Virus record (IMG/VR): IMGVR_UViG_3300048028_000107
Location: 1-32,261 of that record
DNA: 32,261 nt
Reading direction: 5' to 3' (one strand)
Source: a virus
The stretch's first letter is position 1, and each line of letters opens with the position of its first letter. Positions 16,888 through 31,894 of this stretch are shown one piece after another. The position numbers were made by a program, and so were the translations under genes. A model generated the notes under the pieces. That model had not been told where the DNA came from and made no database searches. It worked only from the letters and a program-made list of their open reading frames with translations.

Positions 16888-19800
16888 ATGACAGTTACAG
16901 CAAATACAACTAGAAACGATTACACAGCAGGTTCAGCCCAGAGTGTATATAACTATACGTTTCAGCTTAATGATGCGGCTGATGTTGATGTATACCTCGA
17001 TGGTGTTAAACAGACCTTAAATACACACTACACTGTACAAAATGTAGACAATGCTTCTGGCGGTACTATTACATTTACTTTGGTAGATGCTAATAATAAC
17101 CCCATACATCCTACACAGGGTGCTGTAATTAGCATTGTCATGGCGATGGATTTGGATAGAGATACTAACTATCAGCCTAGTGGTGCATTCTTAGCGTCAG
17201 ATGTCAACAATGACTTTGATCGTCTATGGCATTCTACTAACCAACAGCAGACAGCAATCAATCGTAGCCTTCGTTTACAAGATACTGACGTTACTACGTC
17301 TTCTATGGAGCTACCATTAAAGGATGCGCGTAAAGGTAAGCTGTTAGCATTTAACGCTTCTACAGGCGACCCTGAAGCTACAAGTAATAATCAGTCTAAT
17401 TGGGATGCGGCATACAATGACAAAATAAACTCTGCTTCATTTAGTGGCTCTACGCTTACATTGGGTCAGCAAGATGGTGGCACTATTACTGCATCACATA
17501 CGCCTTATCTTCCTCTAACTGGCGGTACTCTCACTGGCAACTTAAACTTAGGAAATGCTAGGCTGACTGTAGGCTCAAGTAATCAGTTAGAAATCTACAA
17601 CTTCTTAGGTGAAACCTTAATCAAAGAATCGGGGTCAGGGGGATTAAGTATACGTGGTGAAAACCTATCGTTAGCTGATACTGATGGGGGCAAGTACATC
17701 AGCGGTATAGCCGATGGTGCAGTAACCTTACACTACGATGACAACCCTAAGTTAGCAACTACTAATGGTGGTATAAGCGTTACAGGAACTATTACTGCTA
17801 CAGGCTACAATGATAGCAACTGGAATGCGGCATATAACGACAAGATTAACTCAGCATCTTTTAATACTTCTACTGGCGTTTTAACTTTAACTCAGCAGGA
17901 TAGTGGCACTGTAACTGTAGATTTAGATAATCGTTATCTCACATCGTTTGACATAACCACACAGACTGACCCAAAGTATTTACGTGCTGATGCTAGTGAC
18001 ACAACTACAGGAACTATTACTGCCGCAGGTTTAATTGCAGGCGGACTTACGTATCCAACATCTGATGGCTCTTCTAATCAGGTATTAGTAACTAATGGTA
18101 ATGGTACGTTATCGTTTGCCAACCAATCTGGTGGGGGCGGGGGTTCATCGCTTTGGTCTGCTAATGGCTCTGATATTTACTATAACTCAGGCAACGTAGG
18201 TATAGGCGAAACTAACCCACTACAAAAGTTACACATTGATGGTAATGCCCTATTTGAAAACAATAAGGAAATACGCTTTAAGGATAGCGGTGGAACTCAA
18301 AGGACTGCTGTAGCTTTAGACTCATATAATGACCTTAACATTGGTACATCAGCAGGGGGTAACTTAAAGTTCATCAATGGTAGTTCTTATGCTGAACGTA
18401 TGCGTATTGACTCATCAGGCAACGTAGGCATAGGTACTAGTAGTCCTAATAGAAAGCTACACGTTAGTGGTTCAGGAAGCACAATAGCGGTTAAAGTTGA
18501 AGCTACTGATGGAAACCAATCTAGTTTAGATTTAAAGAACAGTGAAGGCGAGTTCCGTATCATTAGCAATGGTGGTACATTAAGTGTTTATGACCAAACT
18601 GCTAACAACGAGCGTATGCGTATTGACTCATCAGGTAACGTAGGTATAGGTACTAGTAATCCATCTGAAACTTTAACTGTAATTGGAAATATAACGGCTT
18701 ATAAGCCCACCGCAGGTGCTAATATTCTCTCATTACAAAGAGCAGGTGCGACTAATCCGTGGAAACTTGCACAGGGTCATACCGCTACAGATTACTTTGA
18801 AATATTAGAGGGTAGTAACTCTAGGTTTACAATTAAAAATGGTGGCAACGTAGGTATTGGTACTAATAGTCCATCATCTAAACTTACTGTTGTAGGTGAC
18901 ATAGAACAAACTACAGGTGACTTAAAGTACACAGGTGCTATCAACTGGGATATAGCGCATCATGGTGCAGGACAGAATATAGTATTTAGCACAACACCTA
19001 CAGGCGGTTCTGCAACACAACGTATGCGTATAGACTCATCAGGCAACGTATTGGTGGGTAAGACTTCTACAGCGTTTGGTACAGCAGGTTCAGTTAGCTA
19101 CGCAACAGGACTTCTAACTGCTACAGTTGATGGTAATGCCTGTGTTCAGTTAAACCGCTTATCGTCTGATGGCGTTATACAAACCTTTGGTAAAGACGGC
19201 ACAACTGTAGGGTCTATTGGTACTATTGGTGGTGATACTTACTTTGAACATAATGGCACAGGTATTAGACTTTGGGATGGAAATGAAGCTATAACTCCCT
19301 GCGGAGCAAGTGGAGCTACTGTAGACGGCACTAGGAGTCTTGGAGCATCTGAGGCTCGCTTCAAAGACCTCTACCTATCTGGCGAAGTAAAAGCACATTC
19401 TGCTTTAATTGAACACACTGGAACAAGTGCTTCATCATCAGCAAACTTACAGCTTAAAGGTGGCGGTGGCGGGTTAATTTTATTTACGGATGACACTTCA
19501 GACCCCGATTATAGTATAGACACTTACACTAATAATTTTAATATTAAACAAGGCAATGATGTATTACTAAACTCTGGGTCTGACAATAATAATGTAGGTA
19601 TTGGCGGGGCTTCAGATGGTACGCATAAACTTAAAGTACATGGTACTGTCACAGCTACATCCTTCACAGGTGATGGCTCTAACTTAACTAACTTACCTGC
19701 GGGTGGTATAGCCTCGTTAGTCGCTGACACTTCTCCACAGCTAGGCGGTAACTTAGATTTAAACTCTAATGATATTACTGGTACAGGTGACATTGATATT

Positions 19801-20340
19801 ACAGGCTCAGTAGATGCTAATTTGATTGACCTTAATAGCTCTGCTACTCCTAATATTCGTAGTTTTATTACTCAAGGCAGTGGTGGCTCTAACCCGGAAT
19901 ACAGTGCAAATTGCCCTTTGACAATTAAGTCAGGCTTTACTGGGGGTGGCGTGTACTCTCCTTATTACACTGTATTGTTTACTGATGGAGGTAACACTGA
20001 AAGAGGCTCTATTAGAACAAACTCATACGGAGTTTCTTACAATACTTCATCTGACTATAGGCTTAAAGAAGATATACAGGCTGTGCCTAACGCAACTGCT
20101 AGGACACTTGCTCTTAAACCTTGTAATTTCCAATGGATAGGAACAAGTGAAAGAGTAGATGGTTTCTTAGCGCATGAGTTAGCCGAACAAGTGCCTGAAG
20201 CAGTAGCGGGTGAAAAAGATGCTGTAGATTCTGAGGGTAATCCTCAGTATCAAGGAGTAGACCAAGCTAAAATAGTCCCATTATTAGTTAAAACAATTCA
20301 AGAGCTAGAGGCTCGTATAACAGAACTGGAGAACAACTAA
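16888..20340 (+). CDS. Tail fibre with T7-type anchor and S74 intramolecular chaperone
   Basis: A 1150-residue receptor-binding fibre. Residues 1 to about 140 match the T7 gp17 anchor: VYNYTFQLNDAADVDVYLDG, then IVMAMDLDRDTNYQPSGAF and a FDRLWHSTNQQQTAINRSLR helix. The shaft holds repeats: NAAYNDKINSASF-type units near residues 171 and 311, and several GNVGIGT units (about 437, 512, 584, 654, 903), two preceded by RMRIDSSG. The end is a peptidase S74 chaperone: SSDYRLKEDI with the likely self-cleavage Ser 1055 and Lys 1060, ending in a coiled coil (IQELEARITELENN). Self-cleavage would release the last ~96 residues after trimerisation. GAGGAT precedes the ATG. Confidence 0.92.
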   Translation: MTVTANTTRNDYTAGSAQSVYNYTFQLNDAADVDVYLDGVKQTLNTHYTVQNVDNASGGTITFTLVDANNNPIHPTQGAVISIVMAMDLDRDTNYQPSGAFLASDVNNDFDRLWHSTNQQQTAINRSLRLQDTDVTTSSMELPLKDARKGKLLAFNASTGDPEATSNNQSNWDAAYNDKINSASFSGSTLTLGQQDGGTITASHTPYLPLTGGTLTGNLNLGNARLTVGSSNQLEIYNFLGETLIKESGSGGLSIRGENLSLADTDGGKYISGIADGAVTLHYDDNPKLATTNGGISVTGTITATGYNDSNWNAAYNDKINSASFNTSTGVLTLTQQDSGTVTVDLDNRYLTSFDITTQTDPKYLRADASDTTTGTITAAGLIAGGLTYPTSDGSSNQVLVTNGNGTLSFANQSGGGGGSSLWSANGSDIYYNSGNVGIGETNPLQKLHIDGNALFENNKEIRFKDSGGTQRTAVALDSYNDLNIGTSAGGNLKFINGSSYAERMRIDSSGNVGIGTSSPNRKLHVSGSGSTIAVKVEATDGNQSSLDLKNSEGEFRIISNGGTLSVYDQTANNERMRIDSSGNVGIGTSNPSETLTVIGNITAYKPTAGANILSLQRAGATNPWKLAQGHTATDYFEILEGSNSRFTIKNGGNVGIGTNSPSSKLTVVGDIEQTTGDLKYTGAINWDIAHHGAGQNIVFSTTPTGGSATQRMRIDSSGNVLVGKTSTAFGTAGSVSYATGLLTATVDGNACVQLNRLSSDGVIQTFGKDGTTVGSIGTIGGDTYFEHNGTGIRLWDGNEAITPCGASGATVDGTRSLGASEARFKDLYLSGEVKAHSALIEHTGTSASSSANLQLKGGGGGLILFTDDTSDPDYSIDTYTNNFNIKQGNDVLLNSGSDNNNVGIGGASDGTHKLKVHGTVTATSFTGDGSNLTNLPAGGIASLVADTSPQLGGNLDLNSNDITGTGDIDITGSVDANLIDLNSSATPNIRSFITQGSGGSNPEYSANCPLTIKSGFTGGGVYSPYYTVLFTDGGNTERGSIRTNSYGVSYNTSSDYRLKEDIQAVPNATARTLALKPCNFQWIGTSERVDGFLAHELAEQVPEAVAGEKDAVDSEGNPQYQGVDQAKIVPLLVKTIQELEARITELENN
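18394..18658 (+). repeat. Direct DNA repeats in the tail fibre shaft
   Basis: A 49-base unit at 18394-18442 recurs at 18610-18658 with three differences. It encodes the ERMRIDSSGNVGIGTS unit. Shorter relatives lie at 18191, 18844 and 19021. Near-identity at DNA level, including synonymous positions, suggests recent shuffling of shaft modules by recombination. Confidence 0.85.
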
Positions 20341-23944: not shown

Positions 23945-24242
23945 TATTAGTTACCGATTAATGACTTCTTCTTTTTCTTGCTAACCAACTTCTTTCTCGC
24001 TTCAGCAGTGCTTTCAAGCTGTTCTTTAATCTCTGACGATGTGAAATTATGACGAGATTTTATCAGCACAAATGCTTGGTTCACTTGGTCTGCACTTAGT
24101 TTTTTTCTTTCGTGTGTTGGAAAGGTTTGATTGAATTTTTTCAATTCATCTTTGGTTACGCTTGAAGAATCTTGGTTTAACATAATTATTTCCTGTTTGG
24201 TTTACTGTAACTATTAGATAACAATGACTTTTTCTTTTTCTT
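23900..24242 (-). repeat. Diverged duplicated junction in the basic-peptide cluster
   Basis: About 75 bases read from 24242 downward align with about 75 bases read from 23979 downward: the lysine-run coding and AAGTCATT, then TAATA, CAGTAAACnAArCAGG and AATTAT, then AArCCA, with a four-base and a three-base indel. The lower copy is the genuine end of the 78-residue gene plus the start of the 54-residue gene. The upper copy is the tail of the 34-residue gene plus unread sequence that still translates as VNQTGNNYVKP beside VNEAGNYTKP. Confidence 0.75.
23947..24183 (-). CDS. Small basic protein, chimeric C-terminus
   Basis: A 78-residue protein: a polar start, a helical middle (KLSADQVNQAFVLIKSR, SSEIKEQLESTAEARKK), and a C-terminal SKKKKKSLIGN. 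The C-terminal 20 bases of coding (lysine run plus KSL) match, with one mismatch, the coding for KKKKKSLLSN in the 34-residue gene upstream. It looks as though the body was inserted between copies of that end. AGGA precedes the ATG. No family is recognised for the middle. A two-base gap separates it from the next gene. Confidence 0.68.
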   Translation of the reverse strand: MLNQDSSSVTKDELKKFNQTFPTHERKKLSADQVNQAFVLIKSRHNFTSSEIKEQLESTAEARKKLVSKKKKKSLIGN

Positions 24243-24885: not shown

Positions 24886-25275
24886 TCAGTTATAACTGAT
24901 TGGTTCGTAGTTCTCGTCTTCATCCATCTTCTTAAACTCTTCCCTGTAATGCTTTGCTATTTCTTTTCTCAACAACTTGTTAGTCTTCATTAAGACCTGC
25001 CACTTCTCTCTGAGCATCTCCATGTGTCCCTGCCCTAACGTATCCTCTAGCCACTTAGTAAACTCTAGTGGGTTAGCAGTAAACTTCATGTGGCAGTAGT
25101 GACATAGACATACAGCGTTATCCATTGACCACCTGACTGACTTAGCAGACCTGCCATAGATGTGGGCGCATTCCATTCTGCCCTCTACCTTGCCACAGCT
25201 TTCACATACATGACCTGCTTTCTTCCTGACTACATCACTAAACCATTTGTCTGCCGCATCACGTTTTATTGCCAT
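24886..25275 (-). CDS. HNH nuclease, NinG-like recombination protein
   Basis: A 129-residue protein with a zinc-binding HNH core: Cys24-x2-Cys27 (CESC), AHIYGR with His38, Asn53 (MDNAVC), and Cys58-x2-Cys61 followed by His62. The following NPLEFTKWLEDTLG helix is typical of small phage HNH/NinG-like proteins. I chose ATG 25275 (behind AAGGA) rather than the open frame to 25314, because it follows the end of the upstream gene with a 17-base overlap. In lambda, NinG works with the recombination system; here the exonuclease and annealing genes are about 4 kb away on the other strand. Confidence 0.8.
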   Translation of the reverse strand: MAIKRDAADKWFSDVVRKKAGHVCESCGKVEGRMECAHIYGRSAKSVRWSMDNAVCLCHYCHMKFTANPLEFTKWLEDTLGQGHMEMLREKWQVLMKTNKLLRKEIAKHYREEFKKMDEDENYEPISYN

Positions 25276-25702
25276 TCTTAAAATCCTTTGTAGGGAATGA
25301 TACATAGAGTCCATATTGTTCTGCCAAGTGTCTGGTTATTGTTTCTGCTACTAATGGTACTTCATCTGTGGACAACTGCCTACTGCTTTCATCCTTGTTA
25401 GGGTACATTGCTCTTTGAACTGTCATCCATATCAAGTCCATCACACTGCGGTCAGTCCAAGGGCATTCAATAGGCTTGCTCAACACTGGGCTTGTGATTA
25501 CACAAGGAAACCCTGCATCGTTACACCTTTTGGCTATCTCCTTACAGAACACCCACATAGCATTGTTTTGTTTAATGCTTCTAGGCTTGCCTAGCTTGTA
25601 CTCAAACGTAACGTACTTGTGCTTCTCATACATCTGTTTAACAAACTCAGTGTACATTGATAGCTTTTTAGGGCAGTTGACTGTCCATGCAGAACCATTC
25701 AT
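25259..25702 (-). CDS. Conserved phage protein, possible recombination accessory (NinB-like position)
   Basis: A 147-residue protein starting at the ATG at 25702, which overlaps the previous stop as ATGA and has AAGGA seven bases upstream; a GTG at 25708 is less likely. Key stretches: YVTFEYKLGKPRSIKQNNAM (read after a beta start), KEIAKRCNDAGFP, WTDRSVMDLIWMTVQRAMYP and AETITRHLAEQYGLYVSFPT. I know this family from phages, next to NinG or HNH genes. A single-strand-binding recombination mediator like NinB is suggested by the K-x-R-x3-QN start and position, but I am not sure. It is followed by the HNH gene. Confidence 0.65.
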   Translation of the reverse strand: MNGSAWTVNCPKKLSMYTEFVKQMYEKHKYVTFEYKLGKPRSIKQNNAMWVFCKEIAKRCNDAGFPCVITSPVLSKPIECPWTDRSVMDLIWMTVQRAMYPNKDESSRQLSTDEVPLVAETITRHLAEQYGLYVSFPTKDFKNGNKT

Positions 25703-26007
25703 AGGCACATCCTTAAATATTTATTCATCATCTTCTCAGATTCAGTCTCACATCTATCAGGTATGACAACAGAATTACTGTAATTAGTGCCATCCGCCCT
25801 GCAAAATGGTTTTCTTTTAGGGGCAATCACTTGATCTGTAATAACCTTGCCCTCAATATGACCCATTCTAGTCCTTAATGTAGGAATAGCAAGACCAGTT
25901 TTTTCTGCTAACTCTCGATAAGTGTAAGAATTGCCTTTGATAAACTTGTCATTAGTAGTGCCTACAAACTTATACAGATTTTCACCACCATGTTTTTTTC
26001 TATTCAT
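25699..26007 (-). CDS. Small HTH-containing phage protein
   Basis: A 102-residue basic protein. YTYRELAEKTGLAIPTLRTRM (residues 28-48, read in parts) is a good helix-turn-helix. The rest is basic, with KRKPFCRADG and a Cys near each end. ATG 26007 has GGAG eight bases upstream and follows the previous TGA by two bases; an upstream TTG is unnecessary. It may regulate early genes or help DNA replication. The end overlaps the next gene as ATGA. Confidence 0.65.
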   Translation of the reverse strand: MNRKKHGGENLYKFVGTTNDKFIKGNSYTYRELAEKTGLAIPTLRTRMGHIEGKVITDQVIAPKRKPFCRADGTNYSNSVVIPDRCETESEKMMNKYLRMCL

Positions 26008-26009
26008 TA

Positions 26010-26219
26010 TCAACTCTCCATGTAGTATTCAGCTACACTACACTTCTCATTGTAGCGGTTGGTTACACTCTTGCGGTCAGTCTTTATGTCGTGACCCTGT
26101 TCTTTCAGCTCAAAGATTCTAGCCGCCACTTGTGTGATGCCTAGTTCTTCAAAAGCATTCAGGCAGGTTAATTTTTTACCATCTTTTAGATAATCTAAAA
26201 CTCTCTCTACTTGTGTCAT
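26010..26219 (-). CDS. Small HTH protein (HTH_55-like)
   Basis: A 69-residue helix-turn-helix protein: MTQVERVLDYLKDGKKLTCL, then NAFEELGITQVAARIFELKE, a winged-helix-like arrangement familiar from short phage proteins. AGGAG lies a few bases before the ATG. Its first 53 bases, and the ribosome site ahead of them, occur a second time at 26832-26890, fused to the end of the replication gene. Likely a regulator of replication or of host DNA contact; no target is visible. Confidence 0.75.
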   Translation of the reverse strand: MTQVERVLDYLKDGKKLTCLNAFEELGITQVAARIFELKEQGHDIKTDRKSVTNRYNEKCSVAEYYMES

Positions 26220-26228
26220 TGTGTTCTC

Positions 26229-26792
26229 CTATTTTGGATAGTTTTGAATTGGGTAATTTAACGCTTTCATATATATTTTTTTTTGCCTCTTGTTTCCTAT
26301 AAAGATTACATATCTATGTTTTGGGCTTCTATAAACTCTTTTAGTTTTATCGCCTAAACTGTGTCTACTGTGCTTACCGTTTGCTGATGCTTGGTCAGTT
26401 CTTCCTTTTGTTGTGCCAGTAAATAAAAAGTTTGTAGCCTGATAAACATAACCTGTATGCTTTTGTGCTGTGTCTGCATAACTGACAATAATTTTTGGCT
26501 TTGGTAATAGCTTCAAAGATTGTGCTATAAGATAACTCGCTTCATTTTTGTTGTTATTAATTAACACAAGTCTATTTAATTCTATCACATCCTGCTTAAA
26601 TTCAATTCCACAAATACCTTTGCATAATGTATGTGATGCAGGTGAGCCATAAGATATAAGACCAACCATTTTTTCACCATCAAACAAACCGAAAGCATAA
26701 GATATTGACGGCATCCTTTTTGCGTAATGCAAATTCAGGATTAAATCTTTAGTTTCAGCATAGCTTATTTGCTTAACCTTCAATCCTTTCAT
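26229..26792 (-). CDS. Mom-like adenine DNA modification protein
   Basis: A 187-residue protein with the pattern of phage Mu Mom-type GNAT-fold proteins: LHYAKRMPSISYAFGLFDGE (21-40), VGLISYGSPAS (43-53), ELNRLVLINNNKNEASYLIA (71-90), IIVSYADTAQKHTGYVYQATNF (101-122, read in parts). Mom of Mu modifies adenines of phage DNA and blocks many host restriction enzymes. The C-terminal basic tail (KHRYVIFIGNKRQKK) could bind DNA. Regulation of the Mu type (Dam and Com) is not seen; it has GGGGGAG two to three bases ahead of ATG. It is flanked by the chimeric scar upstream and the HTH gene downstream. Confidence 0.82.
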   Translation of the reverse strand: MKGLKVKQISYAETKDLILNLHYAKRMPSISYAFGLFDGEKMVGLISYGSPASHTLCKGICGIEFKQDVIELNRLVLINNNKNEASYLIAQSLKLLPKPKIIVSYADTAQKHTGYVYQATNFLFTGTTKGRTDQASANGKHSRHSLGDKTKRVYRSPKHRYVIFIGNKRQKKIYMKALNYPIQNYPK

Positions 26793-26809: not shown

Positions 26810-26884
26810 TTAGTTAGCCCATGATCTATCGGTTAGCTTCTTACCATCTTCTAAATATTTTAATACTCTCTCTACTTGTGTCAT
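26810..26884 (-). pseudogene. Chimeric gene scar: HTH start fused to replication-gene end
   Basis: A 24-codon frame that reads MTQVERVLKYLEDGKKLTDRSWAN and stop (shown in two pieces: MTQVERVLKYLEDGKKLT + DRSWAN). The first 18 codons match the start of the HTH gene at 26219, including the AGGAGAnnACA ribosome site; the last eight codons (LTDRSWAN) match the end of the replication initiator (24 of 26 bases). The join lies at a shared Leu-Thr coding sequence (TTAAC/CTAAC). It is the sort of novel joint left by unequal recombination. It overlaps the preceding gene as ATGA, so it may still be translated. Confidence 0.88.
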
Positions 26885-27138
26885 TGTAGTCTCCTGTATT
26901 GGAAGTGTTCATCCCAGTTTTTTTTGCTTGCATCAAACTCTATAAAGCAATTTATTAAATTATCCAGTATTTCTTTTAAGTCAGTCAGTCCATCACTTTC
27001 CATATCCAACTTGATTTGCATAAAGTCTATAGCCATAGACGCGCGATGTAATTGTATTATTACGTTGTATGCAGAATGGCTCTTATATGCATCGTATCTG
27101 CGCTCAAAAAGGTCAGATGGTATATTGTATTCAGACAT
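26881..27138 (-). CDS. Small helical hypothetical protein
   Basis: An 85-residue protein starting behind AGGAG, 9 bases after the initiator stop. It is helical (RRYDAYKSHSAYNVIIQLHR, MAIDFMQIKLDMESDGLTD, LKEILDNLINCFIEF) and ends FQYRRLQ, the TGA overlapping the ATG of the scar. No family is recognised. It occupies the same kind of slot, between initiator end and HTH start, that mom occupies next to it, so it looks like an alternative cassette. Confidence 0.65.
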   Translation of the reverse strand: MSEYNIPSDLFERRYDAYKSHSAYNVIIQLHRASMAIDFMQIKLDMESDGLTDLKEILDNLINCFIEFDASKKNWDEHFQYRRLQ

Positions 27139-27147
27139 TTATTACTC

Positions 27148-27861
27148 CTAGTTAGCCCATGATCTATCAGTTAATGCGAGTTCAATATCGCGTTTCTTTA
27201 TTTGATCAGGTTTTTTCGCCACCTTTGTTAGTGTAGGGGCTTCAACCTCATCTTCCCACCTTGCATTGTTTAGATAGGTTGACGCATGAGGTATAAATGT
27301 TTTGTTCGCATCACTCCACTCGCCATGTTTTATCCGCAACGCAATGTTCTCAGCTATCAGCATTACAGTATTGTCATTAAGTTTGAGTTTATCCCATGCT
27401 TTCTTAGCTTGTGCCTTGCCAACCTTTCTTGGGTAAACAGTCCAGAATGATTCAAAATGATCTATATTATTAACTGTAATATTAGATGTAGTATTAACTG
27501 TATTATTATCCTTAAACTTTTCTTTAATAGGGTCTTTAACTTTTCTTTGTGGGGTATTTAACTTTTCTTTAATACCCCCATTAAGTAATCTTATATACCT
27601 ATTTAAGATTTGTTTAGTACCCCTATCCTGTTCCATCTCAATGCTGACGTAGCCTGCGTCTTTTAGACTACCTATCCACTTACTAATAGATACCTTACTT
27701 ACGTTATATAGTTCTGCAAAGTATCCGTTAGTTGCCCAACAATATCCTTTCTCATTGCAAAGTGCAGTGATCTCACCATATAAAAGTTTGGCGTTAGGCG
27801 TTAGACTCTCATCGTATCTGACGTTAGCAGGGATGATTGCGTAGTAACCTTTCTTATCCAT
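27148..27861 (-). CDS. Replication initiator, lambda O-like layout
   Basis: A 237-residue protein. Residues 1-80 form a winged HTH of the phage replisome-organiser type (YYAIIPANVRYDESLTPNAK, GYCWATNGYFAELYNVSKVS, WIGSLKDAGYVSIEME). Residues about 96-134 are a Lys/Asn-rich linker. Residues about 135-205 (HFESFWTVYPRKVGKAQAKK, HGEWSDANKTFIPHASTYLN, NARWEDE) match the C-terminal domain of such initiators that contacts the helicase loader. The linker-coding DNA holds direct repeats, as the lambda origin lies inside O. ATG 27861 overlaps the repressor end by 8 bases; an earlier GTG-type start in that gene is unlikely. Confidence 0.82.
   Translation of the reverse strand: MDKKGYYAIIPANVRYDESLTPNAKLLYGEITALCNEKGYCWATNGYFAELYNVSKVSISKWIGSLKDAGYVSIEMEQDRGTKQILNRYIRLLNGGIKEKLNTPQRKVKDPIKEKFKDNNTVNTTSNITVNNIDHFESFWTVYPRKVGKAQAKKAWDKLKLNDNTVMLIAENIALRIKHGEWSDANKTFIPHASTYLNNARWEDEVEAPTLTKVAKKPDQIKKRDIELALTDRSWAN
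27470..27578. repeat. Iteron-like repeats within the initiator gene; candidate origin
   Basis: On the plus strand the core ACTTTTCTTT with TTwA ahead occurs at 27512-27525, 27535-27548 and 27557-27570, at 23- and 22-base steps; the last two are identical over 14 bases. Beside them TTAACTGTAwTATTA occurs at 27470-27484 and 27494-27508 (24-base step, one difference) in very AT-rich DNA. The last copy sits in the loop of GGGGTATT (27551-27558) / AATACCCC (27571-27578), an 8-base inverted repeat. Iterons next to an AT-rich stretch in the initiator linker is the lambda ori layout. Confidence 0.65.
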
Positions 27862-28060
27862 GTTCACCTGCCCTGATAAACTCGCTGACTGGTACCTGGA
27901 ATAGATCAGACAGTGCAACTAGTGTGGCACAGCTTGGATCGCGATGGTTGTTTCTTATCAAACTAACAGTAGCAGGAGATAGTCCACCCTCTCTTGCTAT
28001 ATCAGCTTGGGTCATGCGGTGTGTAGTCATATAAAAGTCTAGCGATTTGTTAATATCCAT
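27854..28060 (-). CDS. XRE-family repressor (Cro/CI-like)
   Basis: A 68-residue helix-turn-helix protein: MTQADIAREGGLSPATVSLI (16-35) is a clear XRE HTH, followed by DPSCATLVALSDLFQVPVSE and a short tail. It has no peptidase or oligomerisation domain like CI, so it is Cro-sized. AAGGAG is five bases from the ATG. It is the first gene of the leftward operon and faces the rightward early promoter, so it probably binds the palindrome between the two promoters. It would regulate early transcription and possibly its own. Confidence 0.85.
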   Translation of the reverse strand: MDINKSLDFYMTTHRMTQADIAREGGLSPATVSLIRNNHRDPSCATLVALSDLFQVPVSEFIRAGEHG

Positions 28061-28530: not shown

Positions 28531-28708
28531 TTTAAATAATATGAGCGACTATGATCGCGGAGAGTATGACTGCATTCATGGGCATCCCGCCAGAGAATGC
28601 GAAAACGAAAACTATTACTATGGTTATGGCGATGCGTATGCCAAAGAGCAGTGCAGACCATATTATAGTGATGAGCAAATGTTAGAGATTATGAGGAGTG
28701 AAAGATGA
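28523..28708 (+). CDS. Small Tyr/Asp-rich early protein
   Basis: A 61-residue protein starting at ATG 28523 behind GGAG (an open frame further up to 28445 lies within the previous gene and is not needed). It has YDRGEYDCIHGHPAREC, a YYYGYGDAYAKEQC stretch with three Cys, and an acidic C-terminus. YDRGxxD...GYGDxYAxEQ-type small proteins are seen in phages, and the layout vaguely recalls ribosome modulation factor. Function unknown. It ends in ATGA overlap with the annealing gene. Confidence 0.65.
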   Translation: MSDLNNMSDYDRGEYDCIHGHPARECENENYYYGYGDAYAKEQCRPYYSDEQMLEIMRSER

Positions 28709-29256
28709 GTAACGTATGGACAACACTGTCAGCGATTGACGTATCAAAACACATTGAGAAGAAGGGTAACTTGAGTTACCTTTCATGGGCGTATGCTTGG
28801 GGTACACTGATGAAGTATTACCCTGAAGCTACTTACTTTTACGATGAGCCTAATGTAGACCCTAATGGGACTGTAGAGGTAGAGGTAGAGTTGACTATCG
28901 AGGGTATCACTAGACGTATGTGGCTACCTGTGATGGATCATAGGAATAAAGCTATTGTAAACCCAACATCAAGAGATGTGAGTGATGCTAGAATGCGATG
29001 CTTAGTTAAGTGTATTGCTATGTTTGGACTTGGGCATTACATCTACGCAGGGGAAGACCTGCCACTAGCTGTATCAGATTCGCCTATCACTGAGATACAA
29101 TCGGCTAAGTTAAAACAGTTGCTTGAAAAAACAGAGAGCGATGTTAAGAAGTTCTGTCAGGTGTTCAAGTGCAAGACTGTTGATGAGTTATCAGTAGCTC
29201 AGTATGATAGGGCTATCTCAATGTTGGAGAAAAAAATTGCAAATACTGCAAGCTGA
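28705..29256 (+). CDS. Single-strand annealing protein, Sak3/DUF1071 type
   Basis: A 183-residue recombinase of the DUF1071 family (Sak3 group, RecT/Redbeta superfamily), which anneals complementary single strands. Motifs: LSAIDVSKHIEKKGNLSYLS and WAYAWG at residues 8-33, TIEGITRRMWLPVMDHRNKA in the middle, then RCLVKCIAMFGLGHYIYAGE and DLP (about 95-118). The C-terminal part is a helical extension ending in LEKKIANTAS. The start is an ATGA overlap. The exonuclease overlaps its end by 20 bases, making a two-component recombination pair. Confidence 0.9.
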   Translation: MSNVWTTLSAIDVSKHIEKKGNLSYLSWAYAWGTLMKYYPEATYFYDEPNVDPNGTVEVEVELTIEGITRRMWLPVMDHRNKAIVNPTSRDVSDARMRCLVKCIAMFGLGHYIYAGEDLPLAVSDSPITEIQSAKLKQLLEKTESDVKKFCQVFKCKTVDELSVAQYDRAISMLEKKIANTAS

Positions 29257-29833
29257 CCAAGGCACACAGGAGTGGCTAGACGCTAGGTTAGGTAGACCCA
29301 GTGCTAGTCAGTTCTGTAAGTTAGTCACTACGGCAGGGAAGCCTAGTGCATCTGCTGATGATTATATCAGTGAGATGATTGCAGAAAGAATCACAGGGGA
29401 GCGTGAGCCTATCTACGTAAATGAGTGGATGCAGAGAGGCACAGAGTTAGAGCCTGAAGCCAGAGCAACCTATGAGTTTATGAATGGTGTTGACGTAGAA
29501 GAAGTAGGGTTTATACTAGATGACTCAGGAGAGTTCGGTTGCAGCCCTGATGGATTAGTTAATGATGATGGTGGGGTAGAGTTTAAATGCCCTGCCCCAA
29601 AGAACCACATAGCATGGAGCAGAAAGGGCGTATGTCCGAGTAAGCATTATGCACAGGTACAGGGTTGCTTGTATATTACAGGCAGAGAATGGTGGGATTT
29701 TATGTCCTATCACCCTGATATGAAGCCCTTTATTGTAAGGGTAGAGCGCGATGAAGAGTTCATTGCAAAACTGGCTGAACAAATTAGTCTAGCCGTAGAG
29801 GAAATCAAATCAGAAGTGAGGAATTTAACATGA
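29237..29833 (+). CDS. YqaJ/lambda-type exonuclease
   Basis: A 198-residue alkaline-exonuclease-type nuclease, partner of the annealing protein. Active-site residues: Asp105 in SPDGL, Glu115-x-Lys117 in VEFKCP, and Gln140 in YAQVQG; Glu70 lies in the upstream helix, with QEWLDARLGRPSAS at the N-terminus. No ATG fits, but TTG 29237 has GGAG eight bases upstream and gives the family start; an open frame to 29204 is out of place. Short for YqaJ but complete in motifs. The stop overlaps the next gene as ATGA. Confidence 0.9.
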   Translation: MQILQADQGTQEWLDARLGRPSASQFCKLVTTAGKPSASADDYISEMIAERITGEREPIYVNEWMQRGTELEPEARATYEFMNGVDVEEVGFILDDSGEFGCSPDGLVNDDGGVEFKCPAPKNHIAWSRKGVCPSKHYAQVQGCLYITGREWWDFMSYHPDMKPFIVRVERDEEFIAKLAEQISLAVEEIKSEVRNLT

Positions 29834-31745: not shown

Positions 31746-31894
31746 TTTTTAATCTCCTCTACTATTTCAGCTATATAGATTTCGTCATGTTCATCAGCTA
31801 TTAAAATATCCTTAAACTTATTCGCCTGTTCAAGGGTTGGGAATCGCAGGGCGTGTTGCCCCGCGTCAGTGAACCAAACTACTACGTATTTCAC
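31742..31894 (-). CDS. Small hypothetical protein (GTG start)
   Basis: A 50-residue protein starting MKYVVVWFTDAGQHALRFPT from a GTG at 31894, with GAGGG seven bases upstream and a GTGA overlap with the stop of the preceding small gene. Longer in-frame starts (ATG 31927) lack a ribosome site and lie inside that gene. It continues LEQANKFKDILIADEHDEIY and ends EEIKK. It is probably a small alpha/beta fold. No family is known to me. Confidence 0.65.
   Translation of the reverse strand: MKYVVVWFTDAGQHALRFPTLEQANKFKDILIADEHDEIYIAEIVEEIKK

Follow-up and report, generated by a model that had tools for sequence, protein, structure and literature searches.

The replication region of a marine phage harbours a 24-codon frame (MTQVERVLKYLEDGKKLTDRSWAN, 26810–26884, minus strand) which is very probably a non-functional remnant of recombination between two phages, one carrying an 85-residue gene (85-type, the recipient) and the other carrying mom (mom-type, the donor) between the replication initiator gene and an HTH gene. 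The frame, hereafter the scar, fuses the start of the HTH gene in frame to the end of the initiator, and recombination would have left the two alternative cassettes in tandem on either side of it. It lies in a viral DNA stretch of 32,261 nucleotides (IMG/VR record IMGVR_UViG_3300048028_000107), here called the window.

Results

Organization of the locus

The mapped coordinates of all five frames bear out the gene order proposed earlier from the letters alone (the sequence-only reading), namely initiator, 85-aa ORF, scar ORF, mom and complete HTH gene, all on the minus strand, so that two alternative cassettes do stand side by side with the scar between them. The full copy of the initiator (27148–27879; HTH_36, PF13730, E 3e-12; phrog_270, E 3e-44), labelled ‘replication initiation protein’ in PHROG, ends in LTDRSWAN and is recipient-type, its nearest relatives being those of contigs L004, L005 and L006. 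The first cassette is the 85-aa gene (26881–27138), whose stop overlaps the scar start (ATGA); it is found at the same position in 10 relatives (84–96% at the amino acid level), with dN/dS below 0.3 against L005. The second, donor-derived cassette is mom (26229–26792; PF25680, E 3e-35; PDB 8bv8 Mom, E 7e-11), and behind it lies the complete HTH_39 gene (26010–26219; PF14090, E 2e-16).

Contents of the locus among relatives

When IMG/VR was scanned with four proteins of the locus (initiator, 85-aa, Mom and HTH), some two dozen contigs from this phage group were recovered, and among them the space from initiator to HTH gene takes at least four alternative forms. The locus is empty in six contigs (L004, L015, L018, L023, L025, L026), and a 245-aa PAPS-reductase-like gene occupies it in four (L016, L019, L020, L024), with L007 cut off inside such a cassette. 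The 85-aa gene stands alone in 10 (L005, L006, L008–L014, L017) and mom alone in two (L021, L022), these being the two single-cassette arrangements that the sequence-only reading had predicted. Two cassettes with a scar are present only in the window and in L003 (99.92% identity over 6,002 bp, five differences), and no further tandem or other scar was seen among the fetched loci. Cassette type changes nine times on the initiator tree, so the locus has often been exchanged. A search at the DNA level through the deposited phages returned no isolate of the group; its matches were short, limited to the initiator and in unrelated Gram-positive phages. In prokaryote genomes the initiator found distant initiators only (≤71% over part of the protein), with no host or prophage. 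The terminase is nearest to that of Burkholderia phage BcepC6B (50%).

Several further features were observed in these genomes. In L019 (4586–5374) and L020 (406–1194), the gene next to the cro-like one encodes a C5-cytosine DNA methyltransferase, and the end of this gene overlaps the start of the initiator that follows; DNA-modification genes have here a second point of insertion, on the initiator's other side. The mom and PAPS-reductase-like cassettes (L007, L016, L019–L022, L024) have a common upstream linker (about ATTAACTGGGGGAGTTATGA) and different ends, as if one cassette had replaced the other there. In the more distant phages L120, L125, L126 and L127, an HTH_39 family gene directly follows a DNA methyltransferase gene, and DNA-modification cassettes may regularly have an HTH_39 gene beside them. 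Elsewhere in the window, no relative aligns at 24001–24200, a stretch overlapping a 78-aa frame without family match and flanked on both sides by mostly 84–96% identical DNA, which makes it another variable spot. The region 17398–19050, within a 1150-aa gene (16888–20340), contains several diverged direct repeats that are probably structural-protein repeats. The five sites at which L003 departs from the window in their 6,002-bp alignment are all confined to 31 bp (window 31841–31871).

The two halves of the scar match different parents

Comparison of the window with itself revealed two repeats, one of 73 bp at 83.6% identity (26831–26903 and 26166–26238, E 2e-15) and the other of 25 bp at 96% (26811–26835 and 27149–27173, E 5e-4), the latter pairing the scar with the original initiator tail (TAACTGATAGATC...CTAACTA, minus strand). 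Both repeats, as well as the parental alleles in relatives, confirm that the frame is a chimera of HTH start and initiator end. Its left half (26903–26831, minus strand), made up of 19 nt upstream and the first 54 nt of the recipient HTH gene, is identical to the 85-type contig L005 (73/73), compared with 60/73 for the mom-type L021 and 61/73 for the HTH start of the window itself. The right half (26837–26793, minus strand), made up of the donor initiator tail and the linker preceding mom, matches L021 at 44 of 45 positions, including the linker ahead of mom in that contig. The linker after the initiator tail is mom-type in the scar (TAACAATAACTGGGGGAG) and reads TAGGAGTAATAA at the window's own initiator; the window's own initiator tail is likewise a different allele from that of the scar, and its own HTH start is mom-type. 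By this allele matching the scar halves derive from two arrangements, and their agreement with L005 and L021 is far beyond chance. The exact parents are unsampled: L021 differs from the scar linker by one base, at which the scar resembles L024, and a true mom-type donor would carry the linker TAACAATAACTGGGGGAGTT. The 85-aa gene of the window (89% at the DNA level to L005) is nearer to L009, L010 and L017 (98%), and therefore earlier exchanges have occurred at this locus too.

The joint itself had been placed at a shared TTAAC/CTAAC, which proved incorrect. The parental alleles share 7 bp, GCTAACC (26837–26831, minus strand), a match masked within the window because its own initiator and HTH copies bear other alleles. 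At least 7 bp are shared in only 0.064% of random joins between the two parental regions. GCTAACC is read in one and the same frame by both parents, as Leu-Thr, and the fusion stays open for this reason. Differing parentages thus meet at a few shared bases and the parental arrangements occur separately, as in a microhomology (illegitimate) joint.

The donor segment is short and returns to the recipient within the HTH gene

When relatives were compared in bins of 100 bp, the outer flanks on both sides followed L004, L005 and L006 (about 94–97% alike, and of 85 or empty type), and mom with its surroundings followed L021 and L022, to which the donor-type stretch 26837–26190 is 98.5% identical. 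Site by site, parentage is all donor-type from 26256 to 26186, all recipient-type from 26103 to 26013, and mixed between. The HTH gene therefore has a donor-type 5′ end and a recipient-type 3′ half, with a second, homologous crossover from donor to recipient in this shared gene (26103–26186, minus strand), bounded only to about 83 bp given the mixed sites in the middle of the gene. Donor-like DNA amounts to about 650–735 bp; it begins at the scar, includes mom and runs into the 5′ half of the HTH gene. Both borders hit one and the same recipient gene, in its 5′ half (117 of 210 nt). On these alignments the left joint is one of microhomology and the right joint one of ordinary homology. Only the window's assembly covers the right-hand joint, because L003 runs out within mom.

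The sequence-only reading had invoked unequal recombination between an 85-type and a mom-type phage. Both parentages are indeed seen, but a single crossover between whole genomes is not what the flanks indicate: since both are 85/empty-type, the donor DNA is short, and mom entered as a cassette insertion with a second crossover in the HTH gene. A single unequal whole-genome crossover could still be accommodated if a later, independent homologous exchange had restored the recipient-type right flank; the left joint would be identical, and exchange at this locus is frequent, as the nine changes of cassette type attest. Such a history requires two events, however, and the right switch lies only about 35–117 nt from the HTH start, near the place of the left joint and not kilobases downstream. 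We consider it rather unlikely.

The scar frame is most likely inert

A scar frame conserved across many phages would have spoken for an independent gene. In a pattern scan of the viral collection it was found only in L003 besides the window, and we rejected a conserved small gene for this reason. A scan for a promoter in the scar gave nine promoter-like sites, no more than shuffled sequences (8.8), and no terminator was found near the scar. The frame might nonetheless work today as a leader or short peptide, for example by linking translation of mom to that of the 85-aa gene, given that the scar retains the HTH ribosome site and start, overlaps the stop of the 85-aa gene and ends 17 nt before the mom start. 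This role is improbable, as the scar is conserved in two near-identical contigs only, carries just the first part of the HTH domain with no family match, and is absent from mom-type relatives that have mom all the same. We regard the peptide as most likely inert.

The same joint in L003 bears on whether the window was misassembled from 85-type and mom-type strains mixed in one sample. The right switch does lie within a well-conserved stretch, and L003 stops inside mom, near the repeated HTH start. At the left joint, however, a 7-bp overlap is much too short to fool an assembler, and L003 has that joint in a contig that differs from the window at five other sites and reaches past its end, leaving an assembly chimera with very little to commend it. 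Copying within one genome, with the HTH start and the initiator tail of the window itself as sources, is rejected by the allele pattern and is extremely unlikely, although a homologous copy of each lies within 1 kb: the scar HTH start differs from the window's own copy at 8 of 54 sites and from L004, L005, L009 and L017 at none, and the scar initiator tail runs into the mom-type linker rather than the window's own.

The mom cassette and the age of its transfer

The mom product is a full-length Mom homologue (PF25680, residues 4–187, 122 bits against a curated cut-off of 27.1), and we take its activity to be DNA adenine carbamoylmethylation, with an anti-restriction role. The insert consists of mom only, and the repeats beside it are explained by parental gene ends, unlike an insertion by a transposon or homing endonuclease. 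Among the mom relatives in other viruses (L088–L098, 53–79% at the amino acid level) there is no closer donor, their neighbourhoods being unrelated and without such a linker.

Dating by synonymous differences, as the sequence-only reading had suggested, places mom as far younger than the backbones. Between the window and L021, mom is 98% identical at the amino acid level (dN 0.007) with a dS of 0.045, compared with 0.37 for the initiator, about 1.0 for ninG and 1.7 for ninB; against L005, dS is 0.17 for the initiator and 0.085 for ninB, all of these being point estimates on short genes. Judged by these values, the mom transfer is later than the split from the L021 backbone and probably later than that from L004 and L005, which lack mom. 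The changes in mom are mostly synonymous per site, from which the gene is probably active. Mom of phage Mu shields phage DNA against restriction enzymes (PMC6483171), and we infer that mom was retained here for protection of this kind. An ancestral tandem, from which single-cassette genomes arose by deletion between direct repeats, is no less implausible than local duplication: the 25-bp and 73-bp repeats would permit exactly such deletions, but the pair of fragments in the scar presupposes initiator–mom and 85–HTH neighbours, the tandem forms one tip group nested among empty, 85 and PAPS types on the initiator tree, and mom is much younger than the backbones.

Discussion

Proposed mechanism of cassette stacking

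We propose that a recipient of the arrangement initiator–[85-aa gene]–HTH was joined within its HTH gene, at GCTAACC (codons 16–18), to the GCTAACC near the initiator end of a co-infecting, related initiator–[mom]–HTH phage. From this joint the donor initiator tail, linker, mom and HTH start would have been copied or joined, and return to the recipient by ordinary homology within the HTH gene would have rebuilt a complete HTH gene behind mom. The product would be two alternative cassettes in tandem, with a chimeric frame between them. Of this scheme, the alignments themselves show the origin of each half, the 7-bp joint and the short, recent donor segment.

As for the enzymes, the window encodes both genes expected for Rad52-like exchange, namely a Sak-type single-strand annealing protein (28705–29256, plus strand; PF06378, E 1e-47; Sak-like in PHROG), the candidate recombinase, and its partner, a YqaJ/RecE-like exonuclease (29204–29833, plus strand; PF09588, E 2e-25; exonuclease in PHROG). 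A NinG/Rap-like junction endonuclease (24886–25314, minus strand; PF05766, E 2e-6; phrog_5034, E 7e-21) and, by a weak match, a NinB/Orf-like recombination mediator (25259–25708, minus strand; phrog_7283, E 3e-6) are also present. Phage Rad52-like recombinases work on short, diverged homologies (PMC3945230; PMC2327257), and joints at 6–10 bp microhomologies form in T4 under selection (PMC9391042). The phage-coded annealing protein and exonuclease may thus have made both borders.

More tentatively, the whole insertion could have been one repair event, in which a break occurred near recipient HTH codon 18 and its end was misprimed at the 7-bp match in the initiator of the co-infecting phage. Copying would then have proceeded through mom into the donor HTH start, followed by annealing to the other side of the break. 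Repair of a single break is possible because both exchange points are close to each other in the same gene and, if true, would offer phages a general route to stack accessory genes with the neighbouring gene rebuilt.

Comparison with known systems

Morons and other accessory cassettes occupy conserved boundaries of phage early regions. The locus described here resembles them in that small genes alternate between two constant neighbours and end sequences are conserved, but differs in that two alternatives lie in tandem with their joint still legible. The case shows how a phage can gain an anti-restriction gene while keeping the optional gene already present, and not just by exchange of one for the other. 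The imported gene is, as in Mu, a full-length Mom (PF25680, PDB 8bv8), though here it resides among the replication and nin genes of a podophage whose terminase is BcepC6B-like. Compared with the segmental amplification of tifA in T4 (PMC9391042), microhomology length is similar and the outcome is likewise a tandem gain of counter-defence genes; T4, however, copies its own genes under laboratory selection, whereas here two cassettes of two phages were combined in nature.

How phage mosaics form is disputed, the alternatives being homologous exchange at short, diverged matches and random illegitimate joins. In temperate-phage mosaics the exchanged segment has a median of about 400–500 bp, and one-sided homology is the commonest class with any trace; most published mosaics have a trace of homology on no more than one side, with the other side open (PMC3945230). 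The window is similar to the Rad52-like mosaics of lambdoid and temperate phages (PMC3945230; PMC2327257) in its short segment (here about 650–735 bp), in recombinase genes of the same functional class and in a homology trace on one side only. It is dissimilar in that no integrase was identified and in that the other side is also resolved, as a 7-bp joint that left a duplicated gene start and gene end. While phage mosaicism and microhomology joints are already known as types of event, this is an unusually complete natural example in a marine phage, where a single event displays both borders, one of 7-bp microhomology and one of homology, with all parental arrangements available.
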